Shown here: piece after piece, positions 10,756 through 30,414 of the stretch
Numbering within the stretch: position 1 is the stretch's first letter
Layout of the letters: every line of letters begins with the position of its first letter
Assembly: GCA_014297435.1 (NCBI GenBank)
Contig: JACOQA010000004.1
Location: forward strand, 1-64,000
DNA length: 64,000 nucleotides
DNA from: Candidatus Nanohaloarchaea archaeon
GTDB lineage: Archaea > Nanohalarchaeota > Nanosalinia > Nanosalinales > Nanosalinaceae
Direction: 5' to 3'
Made by a program: the position numbers and the translations under genes
Notes under the pieces: model-generated
Databases searched by the model: none
Told to the model about the DNA's origin: nothing
Seen by the model: the letters and a program-made list of their open reading frames with translations, nothing else

Positions 10756-10864
10756 TGCGGCGTCGGGGATTTGAACCCCGGTTACGACCACTCTGCCCTT
10801 CAGAGAGCGTCTGGCTCTCGTTCTGGATGGCAAGGTCGTGTCTTAGCCACTGGACCAACGCCGC
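10756..10864 (-). tRNA. tRNA-Gly(GCC) with a 37-nt canonical intron
   Basis: On the minus strand, acceptor GCGGCGT (10864-10858) pairs with ACGCCGC (10763-10757), with A73 at 10756. The D stem is GTCC/AGAC-type, the anticodon stem is CGACC/GGTCG, and the T arm is CGGGG-TTCAAAT-CCCCG. The anticodon GCC is at 10831-10829. The loop is interrupted after position 37 by an intron at 10827-10791. A canonical bulge-helix-bulge forms: bulge CA|T, central helix TTGC/GCAG, bulge AG|T, and an intron hairpin closed by CC/GG and GAGAG/CTCTC. The splicing endonuclease should remove it to leave a 7-nt loop. Confidence 0.93.
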
Positions 10865-19466: not shown

Positions 19467-19572
19467 GGGCCCGTAGCTCAGCCCGGACAGACTCTTGGGT
19501 CTACGAGCTTGGGAGGTCTACAGCGAGCGGCTTCGGACCGCTAGGTCCAGGGTTCAAATCCCTGCGGGTCCG
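19467..19572 (+). tRNA. tRNA-Arg(TCG) with a 31-nt intron in the D arm
   Basis: Acceptor GGGCCCG pairs with CGGGTCC, discriminator G. The anticodon stem is AGCGG/CCGCT with loop CTTCGGA (anticodon TCG), and the T arm is CAGGG-TTCAAAT-CCCTG. The D stem GCTC/GAGC forms only if 19491-19521 is removed. A canonical bulge-helix-bulge supports this: central helix GGAC/GTCT, bulges AG|A and AC|A, then an intron stem starting CTC/GAG. The intron therefore splits the 3' side of the D stem after position 22, a noncanonical location known from some archaeal tRNAs. Spliced length is 75 nt. Confidence 0.9.
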
Positions 19573-27080: not shown

Positions 27081-27347
27081 ATGGCGGTTACGGAAGAACA
27101 GGATGTTAATGAGCTAGATCAAGTTAAGCAGAAGTTGAGATCTGACGCAGCTACAGTGAAGGATATGCCTGAATGGTCAGACGACCAGGTGAGAGTTCTT
27201 TCCTATACTATGTATGAAGATGTGGGCGAATTTGAGGCACTAGGAACTGTCCGTTTAGAAGTGTATAGAGACTACTTTCTGGCCAGAGGCGACGAATATC
27301 TTCTAGAGGATTACTTCAGGCGTTCTGAGATCGCCGGTTCATGCTGA
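27081..27347 (+). CDS. hypothetical acidic protein
   Basis: An 88-residue protein from ATG 27081. A GTG at 27063 in frame would add six residues, but a TATA-like GGTTAAAC about 27 bp before 27081 favours the ATG as a leaderless start. The sequence is acidic with a Trp/Tyr-containing middle (DQVRVLSYTMYEDVGEFEAL). No family recognised. It is convergent with gatC, with a 9-bp overlap. Confidence 0.5.
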   Translation: MAVTEEQDVNELDQVKQKLRSDAATVKDMPEWSDDQVRVLSYTMYEDVGEFEALGTVRLEVYRDYFLARGDEYLLEDYFRRSEIAGSC

Positions 27348-27623
27348 TGGACCTTTGAACTTTCCTTCTTCCTCATTTTCTGTGTCTGCGAACACTTGTT
27401 CCTTTGAAAGACTTTCTTCTTTGCTGTCTTCTCTAGTTTCTGTCCCAGTATCTATTGGATGGAATGCTGGCTCAACGTCATCTGTATCAACCTCATCAAG
27501 TTTTTCAAACGTTGATAGAATGTTTTCGAATTCTTCTGCGAACTTTTCGGCTTCTCCCACGTTTAGATTGATTCTGGCGTTATCGGCCACTTCCTTAACA
27601 TCGTCGGTTGATACCATAGTCAA
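27339..27623 (-). CDS. gatC: Asp-tRNA(Asn)/Glu-tRNA(Gln) amidotransferase subunit C
   Basis: The 94-residue product (92 from the second Met) matches GatC. It has an N-terminal helix (DDVKEVADNARINLNVGEAE), FAEEFENILSTFEKLDEVDT, then VEPAFHPIDT with an extended acidic tail ending KFKGPSA, where the usual tail is LL.NAP. GatC is the belt that holds GatA and GatB together. It is separate from gatA by three small genes, all within the same 6-kb stretch. Confidence 0.9.
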   Translation of the reverse strand: MTMVSTDDVKEVADNARINLNVGEAEKFAEEFENILSTFEKLDEVDTDDVEPAFHPIDTGTETREDSKEESLSKEQVFADTENEEEGKFKGPSA

Positions 27624-27777: not shown

Positions 27778-27785
27778 TTTATAAA
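27778..27785 (+). promoter_or_regulatory. TATA box of the multi-hairpin RNA / ftsZ leader
   Basis: TTTATAAA at 27778-27785 with the BRE-like GCAAAC just before it is a near-consensus archaeal promoter. Transcription should begin about 25 bp downstream, near 27806-27809, immediately before the outer stem of the first hairpin (27810). This agreement is the main reason for calling the following region a transcribed RNA. Confidence 0.65.
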
Positions 27786-27807
27786 CTAGTCTTAGAAATG
27801 TTAGTTT

Positions 27808-28065
27808 AGTTCAGAACATTCGTCTTTGGGCGGACGAAATGTGAACGAACTGAATCATATACAACTCGTTTGGGCACGAGTTCAATCATGTCGGATTCGA
27901 CTTGGGCGTTGAATCCATTCACGCGTTTGGGCAAACACGTATTTGGGCAAGTATCTATCTTCTATCGTAGGATTAGGTATCGCGGTTTAAAAAGATTAGG
28001 TTTACCGCTGCCAAAGCTTACACAACACCACTTACATCACATGATGATCAAGAGCTGATAATTGG
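27808..28065 (+). ncRNA. multi-hairpin RNA with UUGGGC loops, standing in front of ftsZ
   Basis: Five successive hairpins present (U)UUGGGC or GGGC in the loop. H1, 27810-27854: outer TTCAG/CTGAA, inner stem ACATTCGTC with GACGAA(A)TGT, loop TTTGGGCG. H2, 27863-27882: perfect 7-bp AACTCGT/ACGAGTT, loop TTGGGC. H3, 27893-27916: 9-bp GGATTCGAC/GTTGAATCC, loop TTGGGC. H4, 27921-27940: ACG.GTTT/AAAC.CGT, loop GGGC. H5, 27939-27954: loop GGGC, weaker and partly exclusive with H4. Compensatory differences between stems with constant loops argue for RNA function. The remaining leader has GATTAGGT twice (27971, 27995) and a GCGGT/ACCGC stem. It may be a long ftsZ 5' leader or a separate small RNA. 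A weaker TATA (GGTTTAAAAAG, about 27984-27994) could drive ftsZ alone. Confidence 0.7.
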
Positions 28066-29130
28066 ATGGAATCCATAATAAACAATTCAGAATCCGGAAA
28101 AGACACCGAAAACCTCGACGACGTAAAGGATGCTAGAATCCTGGTAGTCGGTGCAGGAGGAGCCGGAAACAACCAGGTAACACGAATACAGAAAAAAGAC
28201 GTACAAGGAGCAGACACAGTAGCAATCAACACAGACAAACAACACTTAGAAATGTCCTCCGCCGACAGAAAAATCCTCGTAGGTCGCGACCTAACAAAAG
28301 GACTCGGCGCAGGAGGACAACCCGAAAAAGGAGCAAGAGCAGCAGAAGAAAACCGCGCAGAACTCCGCAGCCTGTTCAAAGACGCAGACATGGTCTTCCT
28401 AACCGCAGGTATGGGAGGAGGAACAGGAACAGGAGTGACACCAGTCCTCGCAGAAATAGCAAAGAAGGAAGATTGTATTGTTATCGGAACAGTAACCATG
28501 CCTTTCGAAATTGAAGGCGCAAGAATGTCAAAAGCCGAAGAAGGACTATACAGGTTGAGAAAACACGTTGACACTGCAATCGTAATCGAAAACGACAAAC
28601 TACTTGATATTGCGGGCGACATGCCTCTCGATCAAGCCTTCGGTGTCGCGGACGAGCTGATCACCACCATGATAAAAGGCGTAACAGAAACAATCTCGAA
28701 ACCTTCACTCGTAAACCTAGACTACGCAGACGTCCAAGCAATCATGAACGAAGGAGGAGTCGCAGTCGTAGGATACGGAGAATCAGACACAAACAACAAA
28801 GGAGAAGAAGCAATCCATGAAGCACTCTCCAACCCACTACTCGATGTAGAGTTTGATGGAGCAAACGGAGCACTCATGCACGTAGCAGGAGGAACCGACC
28901 TCACACTCAACGAGATCAACGACGTAGGTCAGACAGTCAAAGAAAGACTTGATTCAAGAGCTCAGGTAATCTGGGGTGCAAGAGTCAAGGAAGAACTTGA
29001 GGGCAAGATCCAAGTGATCTCGATCATCACAGGGGTAGAATCACCTTATGTACTTGGAGAGGTCGATGAGCAGCAGGAATCAGAAGTAAAAGGCGATGTC
29101 AACGACCTAGGACTGGAGGTTATCGAGTAA
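28066..29130 (+). CDS. ftsZ: cell division GTPase FtsZ
   Basis: The 354-residue product has the nucleotide-binding region ILVVGAGGAGNNQVTRI, the tubulin signature GMGGGTGTGVTPVLA (about residues 115-130), and DTAIVIENDKLL. The T7-loop region is LVNLDYADVQAIMNEGG. The C-terminus ends in a conserved-type peptide (DLGLEVIE) that could bind membrane-tethering partners. FtsZ polymerises with GTP at mid-cell. The gene is preceded by an unusually long leader rich in hairpins and followed by a stable hairpin at 29214-29250. No sepF or second ftsZ is in the window. Confidence 0.95.
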   Translation: MESIINNSESGKDTENLDDVKDARILVVGAGGAGNNQVTRIQKKDVQGADTVAINTDKQHLEMSSADRKILVGRDLTKGLGAGGQPEKGARAAEENRAELRSLFKDADMVFLTAGMGGGTGTGVTPVLAEIAKKEDCIVIGTVTMPFEIEGARMSKAEEGLYRLRKHVDTAIVIENDKLLDIAGDMPLDQAFGVADELITTMIKGVTETISKPSLVNLDYADVQAIMNEGGVAVVGYGESDTNNKGEEAIHEALSNPLLDVEFDGANGALMHVAGGTDLTLNEINDVGQTVKERLDSRAQVIWGARVKEELEGKIQVISIITGVESPYVLGEVDEQQESEVKGDVNDLGLEVIE

Positions 29131-29907: not shown

Positions 29908-30414
29908 ATGAAGGCTCCAATTTGTAACGTATGCTTGAAGAGTTCTGACGAGCTCTGCAGCATGTGCGAAGACAAGCTAGAAGACGGTGATATCACCGAG
30001 ACTGATATCAAAATCACCAGAATACTGTACGACCTTTCGAAGGAATACTCCTCTCTCAAGGATTCAGAGATCGTTAAGGTATTTGAGATGGAGAAAGTTA
30101 TAGTTATAGTTACTGCGGAAGGTGACGGCGCAAAAGTCGTCGGAAGAAGCGGCGAAATTGTGAAAGAAGTTGCTTCTGAAGTAGATAAATCCATTCGAGT
30201 TGTCGAAAAGGCTGAAGACGACATGGACACAATCAAAGGACTTCTAAGTCCTGCAGAAGTAGAGTCGATCAACACAGTCTTCATGCCTGAAGGAAAGTCG
30301 AAGAAGATCGTTGTCGACGACGAGTACACCGGCAAGATCAACCTATCGGTCGAGGAGTTCGAGGAGATTATCAAGGAAATCACCGACACGCCTTACAAGC
30401 TGTCGTTCGAATAA
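29908..30414 (+). CDS. NusA-like KH-domain protein with N-terminal zinc knuckle
   Basis: The 168-residue product begins with a Cys cluster, CNVCLKSSDELCSMC (residues about 6-20). It is followed by a KH-like fold with the GxxG loop in VVGRSGEIVKEVASEVDKSI (about 78-97). Archaeal NusA-like KH proteins bind RNA and are implicated in transcription or ribosome-linked RNA processing. It sits 65 bp before the ABCE1 gene in the same direction, in line with an RNA/translation role. The acidic C-terminal extension has no known motif. Confidence 0.75.
   Translation: MKAPICNVCLKSSDELCSMCEDKLEDGDITETDIKITRILYDLSKEYSSLKDSEIVKVFEMEKVIVIVTAEGDGAKVVGRSGEIVKEVASEVDKSIRVVEKAEDDMDTIKGLLSPAEVESINTVFMPEGKSKKIVVDDEYTGKINLSVEEFEEIIKEITDTPYKLSFE

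Follow-up and report, generated by a model that had tools for sequence, protein, structure and literature searches.

The ftsZ1 gene of a nanohaloarchaeon is preceded by an array of hairpins that differ in their stems and repeat one loop, within a leader that is very probably a structured RNA element acting in cis. The DNA analyzed was a stretch of 64 kb (hereafter the window), assigned to the Nanohaloarchaeota, the name carried by its close FtsZ1 relatives. Comparative analysis demonstrated, at the level of sequence, the array itself, the pairing of its stems, its linkage to ftsZ1, its uniqueness in the complete related genome G004, loops that are lineage-specific and changed mostly in concert, and a conserved 3' domain. 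The explanation that we favor, by a modest degree, is that of a cis-acting leader whose multivalent loops are read by a dedicated, co-evolving factor that sets FtsZ1 synthesis.

Hairpin array upstream of ftsZ1

Counting both strands, the window contains 12 copies of TTGGGC, five of which start at positions 27826, 27870, 27902, 27927 and 27943 of the + strand, between a TATA box and ftsZ1 (Table 1). These five copies fall within the 123 nt between 27826 and 27948, where 0.016 would be expected (Poisson P ~8e-12), and the five hairpins with a common loop core that the original prediction had placed there are indeed present. Two details are to be added: hairpin 1, which had been given as 27810-27854, has the shorter core listed in Table 1, its outer stem (possibly out to 27806-27853) being weaker and also present in the predicted fold, while hairpins 4 and 5, whose sites both exist, cannot both form fully because two bases are common to both; the predicted fold retains hairpin 4 of this overlapping pair.

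Table 1. Features of the ftsZ1 leader and its surroundings in the 64-kb window.
Feature	Positions	Strand	Basis
TATA box TTTATAAA, putative leader promoter with predicted start at ~27808	27778-27785	+	Sequence; similar sites in Nanosalinaceae
Hairpin 1, UUGGGC hexaloop, 7 bp	27819-27838	+	Predicted fold; homologues with compensatory changes
Hairpin 2, UUGGGC hexaloop, 7 bp	27863-27882	+	Predicted fold; homologues with compensatory changes
Hairpin 3, UUGGGC hexaloop, 9 bp	27893-27916	+	Predicted fold; homologues with compensatory changes
Hairpin 4, GGGC tetraloop, U-A closing pairs, one mismatch	27921-27940	+	Predicted fold
Hairpin 5, GGGC tetraloop, 6 bp including two G-U	27939-27954	+	Hairpin listing
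UUCUA/UAGGA triloop hairpin, opens the conserved 3' domain	27960-27972	+	UUCUA spacing kept in relatives
3' domain hairpin GCGGU...ACCGC	27982-28008	+	Profile; weak pairing support
UUAAAAAGAUUAGG in the loop of the 3' domain hairpin	27987-28000	+	Sequence conservation
ftsZ1 coding sequence	28066-29130	+	Pfam Tubulin and FtsZ_C, NCBIfam TIGR00065, above cut-off
gatC, divergent neighbor (context, outside the element)	27339-27623	-	

By itself, the folding energy of 27806-27960 (z = -1.95, only mildly unusual) is weak evidence for the array; in an unbiased count, between 1 and 3 of 200 shuffled sequences equalled the number of same-loop hairpins in the window leader. It is the comparison with the relatives described below that is decisive. 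Two trivial origins were ruled out: a coding repeat, as the five loop positions differ modulo 3 and have no common frame, and a local duplication, as the stems of the separate hairpins are unrelated, so that the loops were not spread by copying.

Conservation among Nanohaloarchaeota

Inspection together with hairpin listing placed an array on the ftsZ strand in all of the Nanohaloarchaeota ftsZ1 leaders that were read (27/27), also before those ftsZ1 genes where gatC was not found upstream; the proposal that this is an ftsZ leader and not a random intergenic repeat is thereby well supported. Of the 16 Nanosalinaceae leaders tabulated, 12 have a TATA-like site 48-58 nt ahead of the loop that opens the array, and in the others it is located farther upstream, in agreement with the near-consensus TATA box predicted for the window. 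The loop is TTGGGC in most Nanohaloarchaeota leaders, GTGGGA or TTGGGA in L009, L011, L012, L013, L015 and L020, and TTGGCG in L028, so GGGC is not the loop core in all of them. Tentatively, both main loop types (UUGGGC and GUGGGA/UUGGGA) appear to occur in cultivated nanohaloarchaea.

Across 26 leaders, TTGGGC was counted 73 times; 52 of these copies close stems of 5 bp or more, and 46 reach 6 bp or more. A good stem is missing from roughly one fifth to one third of the leader copies. Elsewhere in the complete genome G004, stems of at least 5 bp surround only 6 of 150 copies, and at the limit of 6 bp the contrast within this genome is 4/4 leader copies versus 4/150 (Fisher P 3e-6). Moreover, the ftsZ1 leader is the sole cluster in G004 of at least three strong hairpins with a common inner loop, and it holds all three of the directly closed 6-bp TTGGGC hairpins of that genome; this genome-wide uniqueness is read from the complete relative, the genome of the window being represented by 64 kb.

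Covariation in the stems

In a loop-anchored alignment of 31 distinct hexaloop hairpins, a set for which a stem of 4 bp or more was required, its inner pairs thus being partly selected, 89.6% of the cells were paired, compared with 24.7-44.1% when the partners were slid. Changes on both sides, that is, compensatory changes, were seen at 9/9 stem pairs, double-change cells numbered 128 as against 42.6 in shuffles, and each of the four outermost pairs was kept in 22 to 28 of the 31 hairpins. Mismatches were G-T in 22 cases and A-C in 11 (P = 0.08), which leans to a + strand RNA and is not significant. Stems that vary and yet stay paired point to a conserved RNA structure in the ftsZ1 leader, and the selection on RNA structure that had been proposed from variable stems around a constant loop is borne out.

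Arrays in other phyla and changes of the loop

As the original prediction implied, homologous arrays also precede other ftsZ genes: they were found in a minimum of two more small-genome phyla of archaea and in some additional families. The second phylum is represented by 34 genomes (G040 and relatives), the third is large (G031, G053, G093-G147), and the array loops in these two phyla read GGGC, GGAC, GGCG or GGGG(A). In the additional families the loop is TTGGGC in L225, TTGGCG in L226 and CTGGTAA in L223, and single TTGCCG hairpins were detected in L232, L234, L235 and L237. Several leaders of the second and third phyla lack a clear array, and inspection revealed none before the ftsZ genes of L101-L117, L228 and L238-L242, which belong to other families of archaea. 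The array is not haloarchaeal: its carriers are the Nanohaloarchaeota and other small-genome archaea, the latter being taken as DPANN from their small genomes and FtsZ similarity.

Lineages differ in their loop (UUGGGC, GUGGGA, UUGGAC, UUGGCG, CUGGUAA and perhaps UUGCCG), which is mostly uniform inside one leader. Outside Nanohaloarchaeota the unbiased shuffling of single leaders has little statistical power; under a strict definition, 59 leaders contain at least two hairpins with a GG-type core. Core agreement within leaders was 0.65, versus 0.32 when permuted (maximum 0.45 of 2000), the values for permutation within phyla being 0.39 and 0.51. When loop labels assigned by the analyst were placed on a tree of FtsZ1 for 69 leaders, they required a minimum of 14 changes. 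These patterns show that the loops changed mostly in concert between lineages, and not by the random loss in relatives that would have spoken against the original prediction. The concertedness is not absolute, since the closest pair differing in loop label has intermediate loops: the close relatives G061-G064 carry AGGC, GGGC or TGGC, with GGC as the common core.

Other leaders deserve separate mention. L031 and L227, from one small-genome family, have strong ftsZ-leader hairpins with C-rich loops (TCCCC, CCCCA) and no GG-type loops, which may be a further loop type. The L149 leader contains the hairpin AGCUAUA-UUGAGCG-UAUAGCU followed by an A-run and CGCUC, and this last segment could pair with the hairpin loop as a pseudoknot. 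A tandem pair of ftsZ genes is present at G084:C10:71536-74055 (L140).

The 3' domain and the neighboring genes

The array is followed by a 3' domain conserved in sequence, in which UUCUA precedes UUAAAAANAUUUCG in several phyla. TTCTA lies exactly 27 nt upstream of the A-run TTAAAAA in 16/16 Nanosalinaceae leaders, and a profile of the domain built without the tested genus scored 63 bits at ftsZ1, with no site elsewhere in the complete genomes G004 and G015 exceeding 10.7. In the other phyla the motif matching UUAAAAAGAUUAGG reads UUAAAAANAUUUCG and the 3' element reads TTAAAAANATTTCG, with TTCTA ~25-28 nt away in several leaders. As for its structure, RNAalifold consensus folding of the domain returned no pairs, and a hand-written structure had 82.6% of cells paired with only 5 both-side changes; many of the sequences could plausibly form a stem enclosing the A-run, for which covariation gives modest support.

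The domain might be an internal promoter instead of RNA, with TTTAAAAAG acting as a second TATA box for an ftsZ1 mRNA with a short leader. The position of TTTAAAAAG, 38-44 nt upstream of the start codon in most Nanosalinaceae, and the weak pairing support both fit such a promoter, which we nevertheless regard as rather unlikely: in the window TTTAAAAAG is 80 nt upstream of the start codon, the bases upstream of it are not BRE-like, and the A-run is flanked in different phyla, at constant distances, by a conserved TTTCG on its 3' side and a conserved TTCTA on its 5' side. The 3' domain could be an internal promoter in part.

Regarding the gene context, gatC is divergent and upstream of ftsZ in numerous genomes from each of the three phyla. 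Downstream of ftsZ1 follow a membrane protein, a NusA-like KH protein and ABCE1, an order found in Nanosalinaceae only. The KH protein, encoded in the window at 29908-30414, two genes after ftsZ1 and before ABCE1, has an N-terminal CxxC...CxxC pair; this KH/zinc protein is only a weak candidate for the reader of the loops, because it adjoins ftsZ in Nanosalinaceae only. Elsewhere in the window there are tRNA matches at 10756-10864 (109 bases) and 19467-19572 (106 bases), whose lengths suggest that both carry introns.

Possible mechanisms and relation to known systems

An mRNA started by the TATA box at 27778 would carry a leader of ~255 nt, which would fold into independent hairpins, each showing the same loop, followed by the 3' domain and the start codon. 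The repeated loops would then serve as a multivalent platform for a single dedicated factor acting in trans, the likeliest candidate being a small RNA-binding protein with recognition of a GG-centered loop; cooperative binding, read out via the 3' domain, would set the amount of FtsZ1, our guess for the direction of control being negative feedback. That a dedicated trans factor exists we consider probable, and whether it is a protein we would call an even matter; the GGGC-binding protein of the original prediction is likewise hypothetical. Recognition could drift together with the RNA because such a factor has one target, something that a global factor could not easily do.

A trans-acting RNA could also be the partner, base-pairing with the loops in kissing contacts. 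A change in its single site would force all of the loops to change together; the concerted changes are what a single complementary site predicts, and loops as unlike as UUGGGC and UUGCCG do occur. We still find an RNA partner unlikely. G004 has no second TTGGGC cluster on either strand; a search for the complement by comparing G004 with G015 yielded nothing, since among the 41 GCCCAA neighborhoods of G004 aligned to G015, 0 read TCCCAA/TCCCAC and 1 read TCCCAG, an insensitive comparison with few sites aligned. Besides, most lineages retain U/G-U-G-G as the front half of the loop, which looks more like recognition by a protein than like drift at all positions, and a protein reader suits better than an RNA partner because the U-G-G part is conserved while the later bases vary.

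If the reader were FtsZ1 itself, binding the loops alone or as oligomers, the leader would sense free or polymerized FtsZ. Such autogenous control would be in keeping with an array found only at ftsZ1 in G004, and multivalent sites would fit an oligomeric protein; it becomes improbable considering that FtsZ1 is 83-91% identical within the family while the loops switch between UUGGGC and GUGGGA, and that we know of no RNA-binding activity of FtsZ.

The original prediction had also compared the array with CsrB, and a free sponge of this kind would be a separate short RNA titrating a global RNA-binding protein, its proximity to ftsZ being incidental. CsrB binds ~18 CsrA subunits, and GGA recurs in the hairpin loops of CsrB-type RNAs (PMC7652899), while transcriptomes of SVXNc and of halite communities contain abundant unassigned nanohaloarchaeal RNAs (PMC10266531, PMC7002113), including the ncRNAs of cultivated nanohaloarchaea (PMC10266531) and a conserved 266-nt intergenic RNA of the halite metatranscriptome (PMC7002113), all of them candidates at most for an RNA from this locus. 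The ftsZ1 array shares with the bacterial CsrB/CsrC and RsmZ the many hairpins that repeat one loop, GGA there and GG-centered here; unlike them, it is archaeal and lies in cis before ftsZ1, has lineage-specific, mostly concerted loops, and stays upstream of ftsZ1 orthologues on the same strand in several phyla, tied to the gene by the conserved 3' domain that lies between and leads into it. As G004 moreover has no other directly closed 6-bp TTGGGC hairpin as a possible target, we judge a free sponge very improbable, and on this point the original prediction, whose interpretation is partly supported overall, found no support. An element acting in DNA, with the inverted repeats as operators or cruciforms, would suit a promoter region and is highly improbable, given that a double-stranded operator needs no varying arms that stay complementary and that the excess of G-T over A-C mismatches, though not significant, leans to RNA.

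Returning to a cis-acting leader, its close analogues include multi-site protein-binding leaders such as those of trp, bound by TRAP at unstructured sites, and of pgaA, bound by CsrA. Like them, the ftsZ1 leader repeats a short motif several times and would regulate the gene behind it; unlike TRAP sites, its loops are structured, and their recognition would drift between lineages. Among archaea, the k-turn leader of L7Ae is an mRNA leader structure bound by protein that controls translation in autoregulation (PMC6298567); it resembles the present case in being an archaeal mRNA leader with RNA structure and differs in having one k-turn and no array, no k-turn signature being found in the ftsZ1 leader. 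Control of an archaeal ftsZ at its upstream region is also known from Haloferax, where the ribbon-helix-helix transcription factor CdrS controls ftsZ2 (PMC7439475); here the element is RNA-structured and precedes ftsZ1.

Rfam gave no match for the window leader at gathering, only chance-level ones at E up to 5, and none for 20 related loci, so a known RNA family (CsrB/RsmZ, riboswitch, ribosomal leader) was discarded; no description of an archaeal ftsZ leader RNA was found in the literature searched, mostly outside subscription journals. The leader would represent a new RNA family, for which multi-site leaders offer a precedent by analogy only.

How DPANN archaea control their division is largely unknown, and the ftsZ1 leader offers an entry point, its common loop being a ready bait for the partner. 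With somewhat less than even confidence, we propose that the leader is an ancient RNA element for controlling cell division, common to several DPANN phyla, in which a multivalent loop array is read by a dedicated regulator; the recognition code would have drifted many times, loops and regulator being re-matched each time, so that the versions of this one switch in related archaea would be incompatible with each other. If true, this would be a clean natural case of an RNA recognition code co-evolving with its reader.
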